Shown here: piece after piece, positions 114 through 11,790 of the stretch
Layout of the letters: each line of letters begins with the position of its first letter
How positions within the stretch are numbered: position 1 is the first letter of the stretch
Assembly: GCF_014696875.1 (NCBI RefSeq)
Contig: NZ_JACJQV010000114.1
Location: 1 to 34,461, forward strand
DNA from: Microcystis wesenbergii FACHB-1317
Lineage (GTDB): Bacteria > Cyanobacteriota > Cyanobacteriia > Cyanobacteriales > Microcystaceae
Reading direction: 5' to 3'
Length of the DNA stretch: 34,461 nucleotides
Program-made: the position numbers and the translations under genes
The notes under the pieces: model-generated
Seen by the model: only the letters and a program-made list of their open reading frames with translations
Told to the model about the DNA's origin: nothing
The model's database searches: none

Positions 114-194
114 AGGGTTAACAGAAATTTTATACATTGTTGTCACCTAGTCGTAAGATGCCTTTATTTTAGATCACATTGCACAAAAACAGCC

Positions 195-240
195 GTATAA
201 CAAGTCGCTGCACCGGAACGCCGTCATTTGGTTGGTTGAG
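195..240 (+). other. Truncated integron attC site (left arm only)
   Basis: GTATAAC followed by AAGTCGCTGCACCGGAACG is nearly the same as the left arm of the complete attC at 6367. Both copies then run through GGTTGGTTGAG or GGTCGGTTGAG. Here the next 38 bases of the intact site (equivalent to 6414-6451, containing the right arm and the GTT core) are missing, and the sequence joins directly to the shared flank TGCGATCG. With no R' core the site should not recombine. It marks the end of an earlier cassette array or a duplicated array end. Confidence 0.7.
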
Positions 241-255
241 TGCGATCGTCGATCT

Positions 256-328
256 TGTAGGGTGCGTTACGGCGAATTATTAATTTTAGTTTTTTGACTA
301 AATTGATAGCCGCCTAACGCACCCTACA
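256..328. repeat. TAGGGTGCGTTA inverted-repeat element, copy 1
   Basis: TGTAGGGTGCGTTACGGCG at 256-274 pairs with CGCCTAACGCACCCTACA at 311-328 around an AT-rich loop of about 36 bases. The same element occurs at 6467-6539, where it sits just past the stop of the FUSC gene. Such hairpins are common dispersed repeats in cyanobacterial genomes, and this one could fold in RNA as a terminator-like structure. Confidence 0.7.
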
Positions 329-390
329 CTCTACTGAATATACAGCCCTGAGAGCAGAAATCCTTCAGGCTGATAATATTTGCCTATTAC

Positions 391-757
391 CTATTGGGTG
401 TAGGCAGGTAAGTCTTGACTCATTTGGTTTAAGTTGCTGGCAATGGCTTTCATCGTCATAAAAGCCGAGCTAAAGGCGATTAGCTCATTTAAAGGATAAC
501 TTCGACTCTCAACCCCCAAGCTCAGTAATTGCTTCTCAAGAGATTCAATTTCTTCGATGAGCAATCCTAACTTTGGTGGGTTGAGAATGACCTGGGCAGC
601 GATCGCAGTCTGTTGTGCGGTCTCGCGTAGCGAGCGCGTTGCGACCGCTTGTAATTCATTTGGTTGCTAAAACTGTGGAAATTTGTTCGAGACTGGCAAT
701 CTTAACCGAGGCTCGCTCGACCCCGTGTCGGTTAAATGACAGTGACCACTGCACCTA
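391..757 (-). pseudogene. Decayed partial copy of the FUSC-family exporter gene (3' end)
   Basis: Bases 241-600 match 6452-6811 at a constant offset of 6211 with only about ten differences by eye, so this is a recent duplicate of the 3' end and downstream flank of the FUSC gene at 6602-8833. Beyond base 600 the copy is reduced to short blocks. About 30 bases are lost between two AGCGATCGC octamers. A palindromic insert near 618-650 replaces a short stretch. The equivalents of about 6872-6990 and about 7046-7500 are gone. The final block matches about 7501-7547. The match then stops and VapC-like sequence begins. No product is expected. Confidence 0.85.
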
Positions 758-876
758 CTATCTAACAAAAATAGCATTTTCTGAATTAGAAATTATTTGT
801 CTTGCTGACTTACTCAGAGTTTTATTATTATCTAACCACCAAAGCAAAATATGAGTATCTAGTAAATATTTTAAAA
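758..876 (-). pseudogene. VapC-type PIN toxin, N-terminal stump
   Basis: The minus strand encodes LKYLLDTHILLWWLDNN and then LSKSARQIISNSENAIFV before a stop at 758-760, where the FUSC relic begins. LLDTHILLWWL is the usual start of PIN-domain VapC toxins and holds the first catalytic Asp. About 39 residues remain of a family normally 120-140 long, and the expected ATG before KYLLDTH reads TTA here. It is a dead remnant cut by the rearrangement that joined it to FUSC sequence. Confidence 0.7.
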
Positions 877-1045: not shown

Positions 1046-2014
1046 TCAATCATCAAGGGGACTTCTCACACCTCTGCCACCTCTGGCTAAAACGTGGGTA
1101 TAAATCATCGTCGTCCTCACATCTTTATGACCTAACAATTCTTGAACGGTGCGAATATCATAGCCATTTTGCAGTAAATGGGTAGCGAAACTATGGCGAA
1201 AGGTATGGCAACTGACTCGCTTAGGCACGCCGGATTGCTGAACGGCTTGTTTGAGAGCTTTTTGGATGGTGCTTTCGTGGAGATGATGGCGGCGGGTTTC
1301 GCCGGAACGCGGGTCTTGGGATAGGGTGTAGGAGGGGAAAATATACTGCCAAATCCATTCACGGTCAGCTGTTGGATATTTTTGCGCCAGGGCGTAGGGC
1401 AAATAAACAGAACCGTAACCTCTTTCCAAGTCTTGTCGATGTAGGCGTTGTACAGTTTGGAGATGTTCTTTGAGAGAGGCTTGAATGCGTTGGGGTAGGG
1501 GGGTTACGCGGTCTTCTTTGCCTTTGGTATCGCGGATAATCAGTTGATTTTGAGCAAAATCCACGTCCTTGACTCGCAAATTGAGGGCTTCGGCTAATCT
1601 CAACCCGCTACCATAAAGGAGTTGAACGATAAGATGCTCTACGCCACTGAGGTGCTTGATGACGTTTTGCACTTCTTCTTTGGTGAGGACGGTGGGCAGA
1701 CGTTTGTGACCTTTTGCCCGTAAATATGAACCGATATTTTCCAGTTCAATTTTAAGAACTTCTCGATAAAGAAAGAGGATGGCGTTGAGGGCTTGGTTTT
1801 GGGTGGCGGCGGCAACGTTTTTGTCAACGGCAAGATGGGTCAAAAAGGCTCTAATTTCTTCACCCCCCATTTCACGGGGATGTTTTTTCTGATGGAAGAG
1901 CAGATAACGCTTAATCCAGTCCAGATATGTTTGTTCGGTGCGGTAGGAGTAATGCTTAAGACGGATCGTCTCTCGCACTACGTCTAGGAGTTTTCGGGGT
2001 GGGGGAGGGTTCAT
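1046..2014 (-). CDS. intI: Integron integrase IntI
   Basis: This is a site-specific tyrosine recombinase that should integrate and excise gene cassettes at attI and attC. With the start at the MNPPPP methionine it has 322 residues, the usual IntI size. The N-terminal SAM-like domain covers about 5-95. The catalytic domain shows R139 ([10 protein letters not shown]), K164/K166, H270-x2-R273 (HTFRH), H296 (LLGH) and nucleophile Y305 (TTMIYTHV). The diagnostic feature is the extra segment at about 196-243 ([18 protein letters not shown], then [11 protein letters not shown]), which is found in IntI and absent from XerC/D and phage integrases. The C-terminus [10 protein letters not shown] is also IntI-like. 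The reading frame stays open upstream to 2155, but that part is made of the repeated attI-region sequence, so I place the start at 2014. It is divergent from the cassette, the normal integron arrangement. It looks intact. Confidence 0.93.
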
Positions 2015-2047
2015 AAAAGAGTACGCTAATCGGCATAACACGCTTAT

Positions 2048-2150
2048 CGTAATATTATACGGAAAACTTCTTGCGATCACTCCATTTGAGCGTAATATAC
2101 GGAAAGATTCTTTAAAAAGTGCGTATTTAGCGTGATATACGGAAAATTTC
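2048..2150. repeat. Three direct repeats in the attI region
   Basis: The motif CGTRATATACGGAAA followed by TTC recurs at 2048-2070 (with two extra bases), 2091-2110 and 2131-2150, at about 40-bp spacing. It lies between the intI start and the GTTAGGT core at 2164. In attI1 of class 1 integrons, accessory direct repeats at this place bind the integrase. The same role, or transcriptional control of intI, is inferred here. No promoter is assigned with confidence. Confidence 0.6.
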
Positions 2151-2163
2151 CGCATAATATATA

Positions 2164-2170
2164 GTTAGGT
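2164..2170 (+). other. Putative attI core (GTTAGGT)
   Basis: GTTAGGT fits the GTTRRRY consensus exactly. It lies 150 bp upstream of intI and is followed by the cassette. Recombination would occur between G2164 and T2165, making the cassette about 2165-6447. The site is inferred from consensus, position and orientation. Confidence 0.6.
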
Positions 2171-2252
2171 TCTACGTGAACCCATCATGGGCTATATCAA
2201 ATCGTAGTCCCCTAGCATTCGATGTTCAACCTTCTTTCGATATTCAAACTTC

Positions 2253-2365
2253 GGCGTTGCTGAATCAAGGTATGAATGACAACCTTGGACCTATCCAAAA
2301 GTTAGTTTGGGTCTAGGTTTTAAAAATCCCACAAAAGAAGATTCATATCTCAAATCAGCAACGCC
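2253..2365. mobile_element. 113-bp MITE with 8-bp target duplication
   Basis: The terminal inverted repeats begin GGCGTTGCTGA at both ends and extend about 25 bp to TATGAAT. The element is flanked on both sides by an identical CAAACTTC (2245-2252 and 2366-2373), an 8-bp target-site duplication. It encodes nothing. It sits inside the cassette, 30 bp before the oxidase ATG, so it arrived after the cassette formed. The parent IS is not in this window. A single matching end occurs at 88-113. Confidence 0.9.
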
Positions 2366-2394
2366 CAAACTTCTAAAGATCAAACCTTGAACTT

Positions 2395-5300
2395 ATGAGC
2401 TACCTCTCCTTTCACTCACCCTCATCGGCATCCCCCCCGGTTACTGCTAACGTTGGCTCCTTGCGATCGGCGTTTTCTCGCTGGGTGTTGAGGAATTATG
2501 GTTCGGACTATCGTTTTACTGTCAGTAGGCAGCGCAGCCGTGAGAATGCACAGCGATTTCAGCAGACATTTGAGGCTTGCAGTCGAGAGAACCCTACCGA
2601 TCATCCGATGGTTGGTATTGTCGGCGGAGGTTTTGCTGGACTCTTCGCAGGGTTAATCCTGCGATCTCTCGGCATTGAGTGCGACATCTTTGAAAGCAGC
2701 GACCGGGTTGGGGGGCGGATCGACACCTGGTATTCCTCAGATTACGATCCGAATGACATGGAAAAGGCCGGTCTTTACGGTGAAGTCGGCGGTATGCGGC
2801 TGCCGCAATTTTCCGCAGATATGCTGCCAGTGCAACAAGTGGCGCTTGCTGTCAATGCTGTACTGGATCGCAACGGTTTAGGTGACAAAAAAGTCTACTG
2901 GCGGAAGTTCTATTACAACTCGCCCCAACAAAGACTCCGGTACAACAATATGCCAACGTTCACCACCAGCAGCCAGTCGGTGCTGAACGGGTTCAACTTT
3001 GGTCAATCAACTGGTGGCGACGTGCCCGACATTTGGCTGACACCCAAACTAGACTCCCAGAAAAATCAGTATTTGCCCATTAACCAGGTACTAGACCAAG
3101 TTAACAAGCCGTTCCTTGATGCCATCAACCGTTCCTTCGCGGAAGGCTTTGAACTGTTAATGCAATTTGACCAGTACTCGATGTGGGACTATCTCACCAC
3201 CCAGTTTCGGTTGGGTGATATGGGCGAATACTACGATCCACAGATGGGTACCAAGAACGACCTGCTGCCGTGGTCGGTCGCCAGTTTCCTAGAAACCACC
3301 AATGTTGGCAGCGGTATGTATGCAGTGTCATTTGTAGAGATGGTGATAGCTGTATACGATTGGGGCGGCAGCAAAGATCCCTATCGACCCGGGGATAATG
3401 CCATCTATATGTTGACGGTTGATAAGGGAATGCGGCATTTTCCCGATGCCTGTCGCATTGTCCTCGATCTGGCGGATGCAGTGTCAAGCAAGGATGGTCA
3501 GATCGCACAGATACAGGTCGGAATGCTCCCGGCAAAACCGGATGGTTCCTATACTTACAATCCACCAAATCTGACCCCAGATGCCGAACCACCCCATGCC
3601 AAGGACAGCCAGAATGTACAAACTGCTGGGTCCAGCCCGCCAGAACTTGTTAGTGCCAACCAGCGCCAGCGGGTCTACCTGCGGCACAAGGCGGTGTCAT
3701 TGCAGCACGATGCCGAGCTATATGATGGTCATGGTGGGATGCGGTTGGTCGTTCGCGACCTTGCTACCACACAGGATTCAGAACATGTATACCCTTATGC
3801 GATCGCCACATTACCCAACGGCTGCTACCTGAATGGCGCAGATCGGCTGAACCTGCTCAATAGTCTTTCCTTTGCCAAGGCGCAGGCAATCCGCGAATCC
3901 AACTATATGAGTGCATTCAAGGCATTTTTGACCTTCAAAAAACAGTTCTGGATTGAAGCCGGAGAGCGACAGGGGGGATACGGTGCTGCTGCCACCGACC
4001 GACCCAACCGCCAGATCATCTATCCATCCTATGGATACAATGCCCAGCAGGGCGTTCTACAGATCTATTGTTGGGCGATGGATGCCCGCAAACTTGGAGC
4101 GCTAAGCGATCGCGAACGTATCGAAGAATGCCTTAAAGGAATTCAGTATCTCTACCCAGATGTGGATGTTTACGAACACTTTGCCGGATACGACGACGGT
4201 AGAACCACAAAAACCTGGTTTTGGGACGAACACGCTGGGGGTGGCGCATTTGTGCTGTTTAACCCCAATCAATTTAAGTATCTCTACCCCACCCTGTTAA
4301 CTCCAGAATTCGATGGCTGCCTCAACTTTGCTGGGGAGGGTTGCTCTGTGCATCACGGCTGGATCGTCGGCGCGCTGGATTCAGCCTATAACGCTGTACT
4401 GAATATCCTCCAGCAGGCGGGTGCAAAGGAGAAAATTCAACAGATGAAGGAGATCTGGGGTACTTACACAACACCCGATATCGAAGGCGATCCTAGTACC
4501 GCAAACCAGATGAGTTATGCCTATCAATACAATCTGGTGGATCGCAATGCGGCGGCAGTGCCACCCAATGGCGATCGCAGCATTTATGGGAATACAAATT
4601 ACGTTTTTGAAGGTCTCGTCCCTGCATTCATTGCCGACTACAACACAGTGCCACAGACTATGAAAGCAACGACACAGGACAAGCAAGTCCTCAAGATGTT
4701 GAATGCACTGTGGGACGATAACGTGGCGCAGCGGGCGAAATTACCACCGAAGCCTATCCGCACGGACAATGCGGTAGATATGTTAGAAGACATCTATTAT
4801 GGCAACAATTTCCAGGCTATTCCCGCTCCAGAGTTCTGGCTGAAGGACGACGATGAATTCGCACGCCAGCAGTTAGCCGGTTTCATGCCGAACCTGCTGA
4901 CACGAGTAAATGTATCTGAGGTCAAACAGCTTATCGCCACGGCTGAGGTACCTAACCCGGAAGACCTGGGGCCAATCGAGAATGTTCAGTACATCGCAGA
5001 TTATCGTCGTTACTTGTCAGCATGTACAGTAATTCCCGAAGGCTACTACCTCGCCAAGCCAATCGTATTTTTCACAGTCACAGCGCAAAACGAACTGATG
5101 CCGCTGGGCATCCAGCTTGAATTGGGCGGCGAGCTATTCACCCCCAATATGACTAATGCCGCCAATGCCTGGTTGCTGGCAAAAATGCAAACCAATTGCG
5201 CCGGACAAACCCTCCATGATGTTGGCTTTCATCAATTGCTGACCCACCAGATCTGTGCGATGGTGTCGATCTCATTGTTCTCGGAAGAGGTATTCAACCC

Positions 5301-6372
5301 ACTCACCGAACCTGTTTCCAGCGAACCGTTCCAGCAACACCCTGTGTTCAAATTGCTGAGTCCTCATGTCGTCAAGACAGTCGAGTTCCAACAAACCATC
5401 TATAATCATGACTACGATCCGACAGCCCAACCATTCCCCACAACCCGAACTATCAATGGCACTCCCGGCGTATACAACATCGGCTTCATTTACGATTTAA
5501 TCTTCTCTTGCGGTCGTATTGGCAACTATCAATTGCAAAATCGGATTTACAACGATAGTGATTTTCGTTTCCTAGATCTAGCAATTCCGATCGATGCTGC
5601 GAAACGTGGGGTTTCCGAAACACCGTTTTCCTACCCCTATGTGCACGATGCCAGCTTGTGGTTCAAAGCAATCTTCAGGTTCGTCAACGCATTTGTCAAT
5701 GTGCAATATCCGGGGGGAGATCGCGAGATTGCAGCAGATGTGCAACTGCAACGATTCTTCGATAAGTTAATCCCGTCATTCAACTATATCGACGGCAACC
5801 GTCGGGCGCAGCGATTCCCCAGCGAGGTCAAGACCGCTGACTGCCTAAAGCAAGTGCTAACGATGTTTATCTGGCAGTTCTCTGTACAGCACACCGTGGT
5901 CAATGACGGTGCCTACAATCACGCTGCATTCGTACCGAACGCCTCCACCCTAATGTACGCCCCCCCGCAAGGCAAATCCTCTGCTGAATGGACATCCGCC
6001 GATGTATTGTTCTGTCTTCCATCACAAACTGCGACCTATGAGGATATCGGGAACATGACTTTTATGGATGTCCAGATCAACGCATCGGTTACTGGGCAGG
6101 GTCCTTATCCTGAAACCGTCTTTGGTCGAGGTGTGCTGGAGCCATCCATTGATGTGCTACAGGATAGCTATGGTTTTGTCGTACCAGCACTACGCGACAT
6201 CGTTGACAGTTTTTACCAAGACGTGCGCGAGGTGGGTCAGGCGATCCGCATCAGACAGGCAAAGGACATCGCCCGGTACCTCGAACTGTATCCAAACGCC
6301 GATGCGGTGCCAGAGACGGTTGTGTTTGACCTGATCTCGCCCGTGAACGTGATGAATACGATCCAGACCTAA
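2395..6372 (+). CDS. L-amino-acid-oxidase-like / lipoxygenase-fold fusion protein (integron cassette gene)
   Basis: A 1325-residue two-part protein. Residues about 70-670 form a flavin amine oxidase: dinucleotide motif G77-x-G79-x2-G82 followed by ESSDRVGGRIDT, GGMRLP, and the FAD-closing FAGEGCSVHHGWIVGA from 645, like L-amino-acid oxidases (oxidative deamination giving H2O2 and ammonia). Residues about 800-1325 match the lipoxygenase fold: PLGIQLELGG, WLLAKMQ, H946-x4-H951, HPVFKLLSPH, and H1166-x3-N1170. Lipoxygenases bind iron through His499, His504, His690, Asn694 and the C-terminal Ile carboxylate (soybean numbering). Aligned by eye, His504 is M956 and the last residue is Thr, so iron binding and dioxygenase activity are doubtful. 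No signal peptide is evident. The stop codon lies inside the attC. The gene looks richer in G+C than its neighbours, suggesting transfer. The fusion could oxidise an amino or lipo-amino substrate, which is inference only. Confidence 0.85.
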   Translation: MSYLSFHSPSSASPPVTANVGSLRSAFSRWVLRNYGSDYRFTVSRQRSRENAQRFQQTFEACSRENPTDHPMVGIVGGGFAGLFAGLILRSLGIECDIFESSDRVGGRIDTWYSSDYDPNDMEKAGLYGEVGGMRLPQFSADMLPVQQVALAVNAVLDRNGLGDKKVYWRKFYYNSPQQRLRYNNMPTFTTSSQSVLNGFNFGQSTGGDVPDIWLTPKLDSQKNQYLPINQVLDQVNKPFLDAINRSFAEGFELLMQFDQYSMWDYLTTQFRLGDMGEYYDPQMGTKNDLLPWSVASFLETTNVGSGMYAVSFVEMVIAVYDWGGSKDPYRPGDNAIYMLTVDKGMRHFPDACRIVLDLADAVSSKDGQIAQIQVGMLPAKPDGSYTYNPPNLTPDAEPPHAKDSQNVQTAGSSPPELVSANQRQRVYLRHKAVSLQHDAELYDGHGGMRLVVRDLATTQDSEHVYPYAIATLPNGCYLNGADRLNLLNSLSFAKAQAIRESNYMSAFKAFLTFKKQFWIEAGERQGGYGAAATDRPNRQIIYPSYGYNAQQGVLQIYCWAMDARKLGALSDRERIEECLKGIQYLYPDVDVYEHFAGYDDGRTTKTWFWDEHAGGGAFVLFNPNQFKYLYPTLLTPEFDGCLNFAGEGCSVHHGWIVGALDSAYNAVLNILQQAGAKEKIQQMKEIWGTYTTPDIEGDPSTANQMSYAYQYNLVDRNAAAVPPNGDRSIYGNTNYVFEGLVPAFIADYNTVPQTMKATTQDKQVLKMLNALWDDNVAQRAKLPPKPIRTDNAVDMLEDIYYGNNFQAIPAPEFWLKDDDEFARQQLAGFMPNLLTRVNVSEVKQLIATAEVPNPEDLGPIENVQYIADYRRYLSACTVIPEGYYLAKPIVFFTVTAQNELMPLGIQLELGGELFTPNMTNAANAWLLAKMQTNCAGQTLHDVGFHQLLTHQICAMVSISLFSEEVFNPLTEPVSSEPFQQHPVFKLLSPHVVKTVEFQQTIYNHDYDPTAQPFPTTRTINGTPGVYNIGFIYDLIFSCGRIGNYQLQNRIYNDSDFRFLDLAIPIDAAKRGVSETPFSYPYVHDASLWFKAIFRFVNAFVNVQYPGGDREIAADVQLQRFFDKLIPSFNYIDGNRRAQRFPSEVKTADCLKQVLTMFIWQFSVQHTVVNDGAYNHAAFVPNASTLMYAPPQGKSSAEWTSADVLFCLPSQTATYEDIGNMTFMDVQINASVTGQGPYPETVFGRGVLEPSIDVLQDSYGFVVPALRDIVDSFYQDVREVGQAIRIRQAKDIARYLELYPNADAVPETVVFDLISPVNVMNTIQT

Positions 6373-6453
6373 CAAGCGCGCTGCACCGGAACGGACAAAT
6401 ATGGTCGGTTGAGTTTAAAGGTTTTTTGTGTCCGGTGAGCGCGACCGTTAGTG
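6367..6453 (+). other. attC: Complete integron attC site
   Basis: R'' is ACCTAAC (6367-6373), an exact RYYYAAC. R' is the GTTAG of GTTAGTG (6447-6453). The arms pair as CTAAC/GTTAG, then three unpaired bases (AAG opposite ACC), then CGCGCT, a single unpaired G, and CACCGGA paired with TCCGGTGAGCGCG. The unpaired spacer and the extrahelical base are the structural marks of folded attC recombination substrates. The oxidase stop codon (6370-6372) lies in R'', as in many cassettes. At 87 bp it is of ordinary attC length. Confidence 0.88.
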
Positions 6454-6601: not shown

Positions 6602-8833
6602 CTATTGGGTGTAGGCAGGTAAGTCTTGACTCATTTGATTTAAGTTGCTGGCAATGGCTTTCATCGTCATAAAAGCCGAGCTAAAGGCGATTAGCTCATT
6701 TAAGGGATAACTTCGACTCTCAACCCGCAAACTCAGTAATTGCTTCTCAAGAGATTCAATTTCTTGGATGAGCAATCCTAACTTTGGTGGGTTGAGAATT
6801 ACCGGGGCAGCGATCGCCTCAGCAATTTCATCAAAAGCGATCGCAGTCTTTTTTGCAATCGCTTGTAATTCAGGTAAAAACTTTTGTCGTATCGGTTCAG
6901 GAAGCGGTTGCTGTAGCCCATCTTGTAAAGCATCCAGTTGAGCCGAGAGTTTTTGTTCGTAGCCGATGGAGAAATTCCAAAAATTTTGGTGTTTAGTTGC
7001 TAAAACTGTGGAAATTTGTTCGAGACTGGCAATCTTAACCGAGGCTGGATGTTGAGCGATCGCCACTGTGATGGCCTGCTTCAGTTGGGCGATATCTGAC
7101 GGTGGTATCCTATCCTGAAAATAGCCTGACAGCAGTTTTTGATATAGCTGTCCCATTTTCTTAAAAGTCACAGAAAAATCTGTTTCCAGTTGGTTTGTAG
7201 CCGATTTTGTCATAAATACAGTGGTCAGCAACACCCCCAGAAACGCACCTACGGGAACTGAAATCAGTGCGGCCCAAATTCCTTGCTCGAAAAAAGGAAA
7301 AATATCCTTCCCGATGGCATCGGCTGCTACAATCGCACCGATGCGAGCGATTGGCGTAAACCCCAGCCAAGCACAACTGAAGTAGGCGAAAAAATAAGCC
7401 AGACTGCTACTAAAAGGATTATAACCAAAGGACTTGACCAACAAGTAAATACAGAGAATTGTCAAACTCAAGGAAACAGTGGCCGCCCAACCGATTGCGA
7501 TCGCTCGCCCCCTTGTCGGTTGAATGACAGTGACCACTGCACCTATGATCACAATATCTGCCACTTTTTCGTAAGCAGAAGGATAGGGAAACTCGATGTG
7601 ACGAATAATAGCCAGTAACAAACCAATAACCAGGCCAAGACTGACAATTTCTCTCAGGCGTTTTAGGGATATAGGGGCCCATTTGGGAAAGGTAATCAGG
7701 TGTCTTCGCCTGAAAGTTGCAGTTACTTTGGTTTTATCGATTATCCTGCCTCCTAATCCCTCGCATTGTTGGATAAATCGAGATACAAGTTGAATAAATT
7801 GATAACACTGTAGTGATTCTTGAACATCATACCGATCAATCTCTCCACTTGTTCGGAGATGATCAAGTTTACCCCCAATATTCGCTAAATCTTCTTCTAA
7901 TTCTGTCAGGTAAGGGGTAGCTAAGATTTTTTTGGCGTTACTCAGATCCCTCAAGCTATCAAAGCTGTCGGTAAGATGAGTCGCCAATTGGTGAAATTCC
8001 GCCCTGAACTGATGCACTAAATTTTGTTCATGCTTTTCGCCTTTAAAAGCCATCAGATCAGCTAATTGTCGAGTCAATTGGTTCTGAATTGCCAAGATTT
8101 CACTCCAATTTTCTGCCACCAATATCTCACTACCGAATTCATGGGTTGCTTTTGTGAGCATTGAAAGGCTAGTTTGTGTTGATTTTTTAATCTGATTGAG
8201 TAAGTTAAGCTCGTTCTGCTCAATAGAAAGAGGATAATCCCGCTCGTCGCCATCAGTTTTTAGGTAGCGATCGAGGATTTTTTGGAACAAGTGCGGTATA
8301 TCTTGAAGGATTCCCATCAAGTTCCGGTTGAGATCGGATCGAGTATTCTGGGGCCAAAATAGTAAGGCCACAGCAATTCCCACAGCGATTCCGATCCAGT
8401 TATCGATCAGGCGCGATCGCAAATAGAGCCAGATATTTTGTTGTGCTGATGTTCCTACCACTCTCATGGCAATTAAAGCGCCCAGTAGTGTGGCTTGGGA
8501 ATAAGCGGCTTGCCATCGGTAAGTTTCACAGATCAGGGCGGCTAAAATGTAGGTAAGAGAGGGAATGACAAAAAAACTTGAGCCTTGGATTCCGTAGGCG
8601 TTCACCAGGATAGCGGCAATGATTCCCCCCAAAGCACTTCCCCCCAAACGCCCCAAACCTGCCGCGATCGCACCTCCCATGGATGGCTCAATCAGTACAG
8701 ATACATACCCAAAGACGGGATAGACAAAGTTGTCTAATACATTTCCTCGGTGCCAAAAGAAACTCGTTAAGAGAGCAGCACCTAGGGAAAACTTCAATCC
8801 CTGTCTGATCATTAGCCCGTTTTTACTGTCCAA
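6602..8833 (-). CDS. FUSC-family inner-membrane exporter (AaeB/YccS-like)
   Basis: A 743-residue membrane protein with two hydrophobic blocks of several helices each (about 10-170 and 390-535). They are separated by a long soluble, coiled-coil-rich stretch (about 175-385), and a second soluble region closes the C-terminus. This duplicated layout is that of FUSC proteins, whose members include the AaeB efflux pump for aromatic acids. The upstream HlyD-type adaptor and tiny membrane protein are arranged as in an AaeX/A/B-type export operon, so export of an aromatic or other organic acid is likely but the substrate is unknown. The open frame begins at a TTG (8833), and an ATG at 8812 is the alternative. 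A decayed copy of its 3' end lies at 391-757. Confidence 0.82.
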   Translation of the reverse strand: MDSKNGLMIRQGLKFSLGAALLTSFFWHRGNVLDNFVYPVFGYVSVLIEPSMGGAIAAGLGRLGGSALGGIIAAILVNAYGIQGSSFFVIPSLTYILAALICETYRWQAAYSQATLLGALIAMRVVGTSAQQNIWLYLRSRLIDNWIGIAVGIAVALLFWPQNTRSDLNRNLMGILQDIPHLFQKILDRYLKTDGDERDYPLSIEQNELNLLNQIKKSTQTSLSMLTKATHEFGSEILVAENWSEILAIQNQLTRQLADLMAFKGEKHEQNLVHQFRAEFHQLATHLTDSFDSLRDLSNAKKILATPYLTELEEDLANIGGKLDHLRTSGEIDRYDVQESLQCYQFIQLVSRFIQQCEGLGGRIIDKTKVTATFRRRHLITFPKWAPISLKRLREIVSLGLVIGLLLAIIRHIEFPYPSAYEKVADIVIIGAVVTVIQPTRGRAIAIGWAATVSLSLTILCIYLLVKSFGYNPFSSSLAYFFAYFSCAWLGFTPIARIGAIVAADAIGKDIFPFFEQGIWAALISVPVGAFLGVLLTTVFMTKSATNQLETDFSVTFKKMGQLYQKLLSGYFQDRIPPSDIAQLKQAITVAIAQHPASVKIASLEQISTVLATKHQNFWNFSIGYEQKLSAQLDALQDGLQQPLPEPIRQKFLPELQAIAKKTAIAFDEIAEAIAAPVILNPPKLGLLIQEIESLEKQLLSLRVESRSYPLNELIAFSSAFMTMKAIASNLNQMSQDLPAYTQ

Positions 8834-10665: not shown

Positions 10666-10963
10666 TTAATTTGTAACATTATAAGCATTCAGAGGATATT
10701 ACTTTAGATTAGAAAAATCCTCTGAAAAAATCGCTCAAGCTATTTTTGACATAAGATAACTAGGCTACCTCGAAAGATTTACCGAAGGCTCAAACCTTTA
10801 AAATTTCCTGTAAGAAACCTAATAAAGTATTACTCTTGATGTGACCTAAAACAACCTAATAGGCATCAAGTGTTTGAGTCCAACACTCCGACTAGAGAGA
10901 TAATCTATCGAACGAATTTACACCATTCCAGCTTTTAACTTACATAAGGCGTATAGTCTCATT
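10666..10963. other. Leader and promoter region of the efflux operon
   Basis: About 300 bp without a gene. A 9-bp inverted repeat, TCAGAGGAT (10689-10697) with ATCCTCTGA (10717-10725), would lie in the 5' leader of the adaptor mRNA and could form a hairpin. No confident promoter box, tRNA or small ORF was found. Confidence 0.35.
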
Positions 10964-11121
10964 GTAACCGTTCAGGGGGGGGATGTCAAGCCGCCAGTGG
11001 CATTGACTCCGTGGAAGGACTCTCCTGGGGCAGCACAGAGATGGATACTACTCTTTCACATTAGCCGCTCTTTTCCACGTCTTTTTAGATTACTAGATTT
11101 TGTCCCCCCCTGAACGGTTAC
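10964..11121. mobile_element. 158-bp MITE with GTAACCGTTCAGG termini
   Basis: GTAACCGTTCAGGGGGG at the left end is the reverse complement of the CCCCCCTGAACGGTTAC right end, giving inverted repeats of about 20 bp. No transposase is encoded. The flanks (GTCTCATT and TTCAAGGG) do not form a target duplication. A terminus starting GTAA is reminiscent of IS66-type ends, but this is a weak guess. A partial copy of the right half in the same orientation lies at about 19541-19603. Confidence 0.75.
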
Positions 11122-11146
11122 TTCAAGGGAGAAAAAGCGATCGGGC

Positions 11147-11152
11147 TATAAT
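11147..11152 (+). promoter_or_regulatory. Possible -10 box (TATAAT) for the nuclease-like gene cluster
   Basis: TATAAT lies 36 bp upstream of the first paralogue's ATG and just outside the MITE end. No good -35 box at 16-18 bp is visible, only TTCAAG 19 bp upstream. Tentative. Confidence 0.35.
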
Positions 11153-11187
11153 AGAGAAAATTTTATTTTAACTTGAGAAAATTCATT

Positions 11188-11790
11188 ATGACAGCCACTA
11201 TTGAAGACATTCGGGCAATACTAAAGGAATTGGCCCAATCCCAACAAGAGTTATCCCAATCCCAACAAGAGTTATCCCAAGCTCAAAAAGAGTTATCCCA
11301 AGCTCAACAAGAAACGGATAAACAAATCAAGGAAACAGATAAGCAAATTAACAGAGTTAGTAAGCAGATTGGGGAGTTGGGCAATCGTTTAGGAGAGTTT
11401 GTCGAGTGGCAAGTACGTCCTGCGGTGGTGCGTCTGTTTCAGGAGCGGGGTATTGATGTCCATGAGTTTCACCCCGGCATTTCGGTAAAACGGGATAATG
11501 AGGGTTTAGAGATTGATCTATTAGTAGTAAATGATACCGATGCCATTTTAGTGGAAGTCAAAAGTAAGTTAACTCAAAGGGATGTGGACGAGCATTTACA
11601 ACGTTTGGCGAAGTTTAAGCGGTTAATGCCTCGTTTTCGAGATGTAAAGGCCTTGGGAGCGGTGGCAGCGATGATTGTTCCCAATGAGGTGGCGAGTTAT
11701 GGTTGTCGTCAGGGTTTGTTTGTGTTGGTGCAGTCAGGGGAAAATGTAATAATTTTAAATGATGCGGAGTTTACGCCTCGGGTTTGGTAG
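11188..11790 (+). CDS. Coiled-coil PD-(D/E)XK nuclease-like protein, paralogue 1 (DUF3782-like)
   Basis: The product has 200 residues from ATG 11188; an in-frame TTG at 11173 is less likely. The first 65 residues are a heptad-repeat coiled coil (SQQELSQ, SQQELSQ, AQKELSQ, then ETDKQIK units). A globular part from about 68 carries a nuclease-like core: GLEID with D110, then E123-V-K125 in LVEVKSKL, the D...ExK signature of the PD-(D/E)XK superfamily. A helix with LAKFKRLMPRF and a final strand with GLFVLVQSGENVIILN follow. Similar cyanobacterial proteins are annotated only as DUF3782 or unknown function. This is the longest of three tandem near-identical copies, two heptads longer than copy 2. 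The position next to a TIR-STAND gene suggests defence, which is inference. Confidence 0.8.
   Translation: MTATIEDIRAILKELAQSQQELSQSQQELSQAQKELSQAQQETDKQIKETDKQINRVSKQIGELGNRLGEFVEWQVRPAVVRLFQERGIDVHEFHPGISVKRDNEGLEIDLLVVNDTDAILVEVKSKLTQRDVDEHLQRLAKFKRLMPRFRDVKALGAVAAMIVPNEVASYGCRQGLFVLVQSGENVIILNDAEFTPRVW

Follow-up and report, generated by a model that had tools for sequence, protein, structure and literature searches.

Integrons are usually described as one attI site beside one integrase gene (intI), with an array of gene cassettes. We have analysed a stretch of 34,461 nucleotides from Microcystis wesenbergii FACHB-1317 (NCBI RefSeq assembly GCF_014696875.1, contig NZ_JACJQV010000114.1, positions 1 to 34,461 of the forward strand), here called the window, which is contig 18 of a 5.04-Mb genome in 248 contigs. 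Judged from its sequence, the window holds a genuine chromosomal integron with one very large captured cassette, resident in Microcystis at the locus of a FUSC transporter gene. Window base 1 is the start of the contig, and the DNA to the left of the integron is therefore missing. A first-pass annotation had called the element a complete integron, and had named an integrase tree and an attC covariance model as the checks that should decide. Its claim of completeness holds, both checks having come out in its favour, with intI, attI, one 4.28-kb cassette and attC all confirmed in the window. It had also called integrons little described in cyanobacteria. This needs amending: the excerpts of PMC2426708 and PMC8618304 already concern integrons in cyanobacteria, and that of PMC8352920 contains a Cyanobacteria-specific attC model.

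Several described systems resemble parts of what is found here. The sedentary chromosomal integron (relative IntI4, structure 2a3v) has the same IntI family with its extra domain, the attI core, the covarying attC fold and a stop codon within attC, but Microcystis differs in having one very large cassette beside intI, while 106 of the 120 attC sites in the 12 genomes, and numerous attI-like blocks, lie elsewhere. Single or paired attC sites away from intI are shared with SALIN/CALIN elements, that is attC sites without an integrase, as they appear in the excerpts of PMC12690207 and PMC9024848; the difference is that several Microcystis attC sites are preceded by an attI-like block, and that the attI blocks are themselves dispersed. 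Cassettes outside attI and attC arrays also occur by attG insertion (excerpts of PMC12444791, PMC12901181 and PMC12690207, citing Loot 2024), although attG sites are called divergent from classical att sites in the citing text, whereas the Microcystis docks are attI homologues. Finally, the Delta-attI-type gene cassettes in the excerpt of PMC12901181 likewise carry attI sequence away from its intI, but there as pieces of attI1 or attI2 inside mobile arrays, and not as chromosome-wide blocks. Among the matches listed from the open-licence literature, no paper on the dispersed attI/attC pattern was found, none had a Microcystis integron as its topic by title, and 'integron integrase' and 'Microcystis aeruginosa' occurred together only in a paper on HEPN domains.

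The integrase is clearly identified. The open reading frame (ORF) at 1046-2155 on the minus strand scores 471 bits against TIGR02249 (integron integrase; cut-off 265), and 157 and 146 bits against the XerC and XerD models. Its best match among solved structures is IntI4 (2a3v), at E 1.3e-93 and in a single-piece alignment; the next-best chains (XerC-like, XerA) are split into two pieces around the stretch of the integrase extra domain. The catalytic stretches are present (in ORF numbering, GSGLR from 182, TKGKEDR 210, HTFRHS 317 and LLGHKDV...MIYTH 340), and within them lie the residues that we take to be catalytic. The extra domain and catalytic residues claimed in the first-pass annotation are thus borne out, but not the start of the protein, which most likely is M48 at window position 2014 instead of 2155. 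As read from the sequence, the first 47 codons of the ORF are probably not integrase, and overlap attI.

A tree of 63 rows (22 cyanobacterial IntI, 25 other IntI, 15 non-IntI and the window) places the window integrase inside an 18-row set with support 97/93, composed of itself, 16 cyanobacterial IntI and one metagenome-assembled genome row labelled Tatlockia. The non-IntI rows require one change on the tree, with weak support as a single group (74/43), and two of them sit on very long branches at an unresolved fork. The tree and the margin of the TIGR02249 score rule out identity as a XerC/D or phage integrase. In the phylum sample as a whole, integron-integrase matches over the cut-off were seen in 23 of 386 genomes, while other genomes held fragments or copies with stops.

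The attC at the end of the cassette was described earlier as having paired cores, an unpaired spacer and one extrahelical base, and fold, covariance model and covariation all agree with this. The folding energy of the bottom strand is -17.7 kcal/mol (z -2.98), a value matched by 2 of 200 shuffles. A covariance model was built from seven other Microcystis attC sites, one of them from another contig of the same genome. Although built without it, this independent model recovers the window attC with 58 bits (E 1.8e-13); the unfiltered search of the 34 kb gave no other hit up to E 1. Compensatory changes occur at 10 of the 17 predicted pairs among eight Microcystis attC sites. In an alignment of 65 distinct attC sites, which was fitted to the structure, 90.9% of cells pair, and the covariation score is 0.403, compared to 0.130 when shuffled and at most 0.087 when slid. 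The top strand carries a G as its extrahelical base in 60 of the 65; the well-studied class 1 attC sites have a C in that strand and a G in the bottom one.

It could be argued that all this is a chance palindrome beside a mis-called recombinase. A simple palindrome scan is indeed unspecific: two sites in FUSC sequence score 21.6 and 21.3, above the 19.0 of the attC, and shuffled DNA reaches similar scores (up to 19.2). For this reason the covariance model was relied on. A chance attC is ruled out by that independent model, and the chance reading as a whole is refuted by model and tree, together with the TIGR02249 score and the attC covariation, so that it deserves practically no weight. A search of Rfam gave no family at gathering score.

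The attI lies directly beside intI. Its core, GTTAGGT at 2164-2170, had already been noted as attI-like, and is confirmed; what had been overlooked is that these bases, which start the cassette, are the exact complement of the attC end, ACCTAAC at 6367-6373, in 7/7 bases. This is expected of insertion by IntI, because the cassette circle closes through attC. Within attI (Table 1) there are three direct repeats, with a putative role in the binding of integrase or a regulator, and a TATAAT-like box before the core that is a putative promoter and could drive the first cassette. We also note that the left end of the block (2016-2166) holds GGCATAACACG / GGCTAACACG, resembling an inverted att core.

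The cassette gene ends within the attC, which contains its TAA stop. Its GC content is 0.511 (0.570 at third positions), against 0.444 and 0.433 in the neighbouring FUSC gene, and in these terms the gene is of foreign make-up. No match at E 1e-30 or better was found in 385 other cyanobacterial genomes (only the own genome of 386 matched, in a search that scored just the top candidates of each genome), and the idea that the gene is native to cyanobacteria was rejected on this count. Within the genus there are only partial matches, of 28-31% identity, in six other genomes and once more in the own genome. A protein of a Burkholderia stagnalis replicon is 71.6% identical to the product over its full length, and is the only match covering at least 80% among 56 plasmid records with a match. 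The window thus adds a cassette gene whose 72% identical relative belongs to another phylum. The Burkholderia copy was considered as a cassette in its own right and rejected, with no attC-like site nearby by the cyanobacterial model (best E 0.67), and we do not claim Burkholderia as the direct donor. The excerpt of PMC8352920 gives a limit of 4 kb for attC spacing, called there twice the largest annotated gene cassette. At 4,283 bp the window cassette exceeds this limit, and such a rule would miss it.

Table 1. Features of the integron locus and its flanks in the window.
Feature	Position	Strand	Evidence
intI, integron integrase, 322 aa	1046..2014	-	TIGR02249, IntI4 match, tree, M48 start
attI block, about 150 bp, with the crossover core G^TT (2164-2166) as its end	2016..2166	+	recurs without intI elsewhere; strain homology breaks at GTT
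Three 20-nt direct repeats in attI, exact 40-nt spacing	2053..2152 (2053-2072, 2093-2112, 2133-2152)	+	
Palindrome GGAAAATTTCC inside attI	2141-2151		
-10-like CATAAT inside attI	2153-2158		
Gene cassette, 4,283 bp; first bases TT in the attI core, last base G in the attC core	2165..6447	+	end complement; divergence from NIES-4325 begins here
Inverted repeat like a miniature inverted-repeat transposable element (MITE), GGCGTTGCTGAATC-type arm, full copy in cassette 5' region	2250..2368	.	arm-like copy at 88-113 near contig start
Cassette gene, 1325 aa, predicted flavin L-amino-acid oxidase fused to lipoxygenase	2395..6372	+	Amino_oxidase 1.2e-31, Lipoxygenase 2.2e-21
attC: R'' ACCTAAC 6367-6373, R' GTTAGTG 6447-6453, extrahelical G in left arm (top strand)	6367..6453	+	fold, covariance model, covariation
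FUSC/YccS-like transporter gene, chromosomal flank of the locus in Microcystis	6602..8833	-	weak family matches
Truncated attC (about 193-240), then FUSC 3' sequence in a rearranged copy, beyond intI	190..762	+	repeat and relative comparisons

The locus was then compared in 12 Microcystis species representatives, including the source genome. In NIES-4325 it comprises the FUSC gene, 8 kb of sequence in which the model finds at least two attC sites, attI, an intI with a frameshift, and a fragment of FUSC. The attI sites were counted with one entry per genome place, giving 48 places, of which 11 are at intI loci; the main-locus attI of G312 and of G387 do not fit the motif and were left out. Of the 55 pairs of these 11 sites, 54 lose their homology at -8 to +13 counted from the final T of GTT, pairs of strains and of sites being non-independent. 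The remaining pair (contig 241 of the source genome and G357) shares its first cassette. The start of the first cassette is the exact complement of the end of the following attC in 6 of 7 intI-linked cases. Taking all 25 such cases together, 13 are exact, with a mean of 3.15 after shuffling and none of 20,000 shuffles as high; sites with the same core and the same first 20 downstream bases were omitted here, so that no cassette is counted twice.

These comparisons bear on whether the integron still works. Of nine intI-linked copies examined, only that of the window and that of G080 (RI_101, another genus) remain in a single frame past residue 65. The other seven, NIES-4325 among them, change frame near this ORF residue in a translated search, which could mean that the IntI of the window, though intact in sequence, is silent or inactive, with the large cassette simply fixed. 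The corresponding array-end attC is truncated both in NIES-4325 and in the left-hand copy of the window, as such a dead relic would have it. Against it, the window intI reads through in one frame and the first cassette differs in 54 of the 55 attI pairs. We regard a dead relic as rather unlikely, and the window intI may still be active. Given the frame changes and losses of intI in relatives, activity in most of them may be past. The frame-changing copies are L033, L191, L118, L194, L119, L120 and L193, and look as if they go back to one old shared change.

The first-pass annotation had counted only one cassette next to the integrase. This is correct for that place alone: with the attC model and a limit of E 0.001 (model E-values being rough), the source genome has 16 attC-like sites on 12 contigs. 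All 12 Microcystis genomes have such sites, 120 in total and 4-16 in each, of which 14 are at the intI locus and 106 elsewhere. In closed genomes they are spread around the chromosome; the 14 sites of G386, for example, lie between 0.76 and 5.78 Mb. Across the order, one or more attC sites were found in 73 of 100 genomes, and none in the other 27.

The cassettes ending in these sites were compared where two sites share a cassette of at least 100 bp. In 12 pairs of sites the downstream flank is not shared, and in 11 of these the homology stops at -9 to +4 relative to the final base of R' (the other at -16); several pairs reuse one site and are thus non-independent. In 12 further pairs homology runs on for 39 to 400 bases, mostly because the place itself is shared. 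As a separate observation, the same repeat-element end (TGAATCGGTTTTTAA) directly follows 6 of the 56 dispersed attC sites printed (G000:C176, G386:2006796, G389:438165, G389:3202907, G235:C21 and G387:C9), as if it were a target for recombination.

It is striking that attI is dispersed as well. The motif at its end, CGGAAARTTTCYGYATAATNNATAGTT, occurs in each of the 12 Microcystis genomes in 3-11 copies (up to 2 mismatches, intI-linked copies included), with none in a reversed control. An alignment of 35 attI sites has a common architecture over about 80 bases, including the palindrome and the TATAAT-like box. Many dispersed copies match the window attI, in the flanks printed, back to just before the start of intI, and the stretches that copies have in common fall mainly into two length groups, 70-80 and 130-150 bp. 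In the 336 to 1,500 bases upstream of dispersed copies, a translated search gave no intI match beyond ORF residue 63; the matches cover mainly residues 1-50 of the ORF, with one weak case reaching 63.

A block with a TATAAT-like box and a palindrome, in a genus as rich in repeats as Microcystis, might instead be a promoter-bearing MITE-like repeat, unrelated to IntI and by chance located before intI and some cassettes. Consistent with this, for 20 of the 25 motif sites in four closed genomes a search over 4 kb revealed no attC. However, at the other 5 an attC follows within 4 kb on the same strand, whereas rotations give a mean of 0.08 and none of 20,000 is as high. Four of these cases remain when the intI-linked one is removed. 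(This count omits one of the 11 attC sites of G389, 5306386, which lies within 4 kb of no same-strand attI.) Such closeness above chance, the exact start/attC complement at 7 of 18 dispersed copies and the crossover-exact divergence of orthologous copies, described next, make a mere repeat improbable.

Orthologous dispersed sites were compared through their shared upstream DNA. There are 21 dispersed attI pairs whose common upstream DNA extends over 250 bp or more; in 17 of them homology breaks off at -8 to +7 of GTT, and the other 4 share their cassette. When at least 700 bp are shared, there are 12 orthologous pairs, of which 8 (at 5 loci) break at +1 to +5 of GTT and the other 4 share their cassette. 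This is of importance for a serious rival, to which we allow a substantial though minor share of belief: that the window integron is an ordinary one, and that attI and attC elsewhere are mere debris, fragments of old arrays scattered by insertion sequence elements, inversions and homologous recombination, at which IntI does not act. Array fragments with a truncated intI do exist. An intI remnant cut to about residues 10-105 stands beside a FUSC fragment in 8 of the 12 Microcystis genomes, the source genome included, and the left flank of the window is itself a duplicated, broken array end. The repeat-element end abutting six attC sites fits the same rival, and so does a split DUF29 gene discussed below. 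But random rearrangement would not stop at GTT, and the dispersed attI blocks show no intI match past ORF residue 63. Fragmentation of old arrays explains some of the dispersed pieces, but not easily the GTT breaks at orthologous dispersed sites. The source genome has its own example of a broken copy, on contig 241 (L194, about 10800-11550): a second integron with a truncated intI (about residues 10-105), its own attI and a FUSC fragment, with two model-found attC sites downstream and a first cassette in common with G357.

On the basis of these observations, we hypothesise that the genuine chromosomal integron of the window, at the FUSC locus, is one dock of a wider set served in trans, and as a whole we hold this explanation to be probable. 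IntI would fold and cut the bottom strand of the cassette attC, as known for the family, and join it at the G^TT of attI, beside the promoter-like element, so that the first cassette could be expressed. The slot in the window would have been filled in this way by one very large amino-acid-oxidase/lipoxygenase cassette. Besides the window locus, the docks would be the attI-like blocks, some 75-150 bp long, that are dispersed without an intI, as are cassettes with attC. Most likely, cassettes would have been recombined in trans at these docks by an IntI produced from a single place or present only intermittently; both the origin of the junctions through IntI and its action on dispersed attI are here inferred. 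The scattered capture sites and cassettes suggest that gene capture is spread over the chromosome, and not confined to one array. More tentatively, with confidence a little short of even, there may be a distributed integron in Microcystis, and perhaps in its family, in which one IntI per strain, often broken or lost, serves many scattered attI docks, each with its own promoter-like box, so that capture and expression of cassettes would take place at many sites and not in a single array.

The extent of the claim is set by an attI model, R3, which has hits in 52 of 100 genomes of the order, but also in 5 of the 27 without any attC, and whose scores outside the family are mostly weak. Dispersed attI is therefore claimed only for Microcystis, and less firmly for its family. 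If the hypothesis is true, chromosome-wide attI docks with exchange at the core would allow a single integrase to plug cassettes into many promoters, and the natural use of IntI outside its array would become testable in closed genomes.

A number of observations weigh against the hypothesis, besides the unspecific palindrome scan, the frame change in seven intI copies, the non-independence of the pairs and the many motif sites with no attC close by. An intI over the cut-off is present in only 4 of the 12 Microcystis genomes, in one of them with an internal stop. The start/attC complement is exact at only the 7 of 18 dispersed sites given above (mean 2.50 in shuffles, of which 83 in 20,000 do as well). 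Among the matches listed, 7 of 11 attC sites had no exact start complement in the upstream stretch of up to 5 kb. At the loci examined, a cleanly empty dispersed site showing both junctions was not seen: at G386:2419458, G389:4966315 and G389:448775 there was shared DNA past attC or a one-sided junction. At G386:2419458, homology to seven genomes begins 5 or more bases past the attC end. A further candidate, G386:2273031 compared with G235, was rejected as an empty site, and is a deletion within attC.

At one locus the G386 attC abuts a DUF29 gene exactly at G^TT, where G235 reads on. A search of 25 kb of G386 around the locus did not recover the left half of this gene, and this is therefore not a simple insertion. 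It is worth adding that one dispersed locus, which includes this junction, can be followed through five genomes (L231, L246, L252, L260 and L270), with a common left flank, differing content and common DNA on the right. The left flank ends at an attI-like block in the three that were checked, and a model-found attC is present in four of the five.

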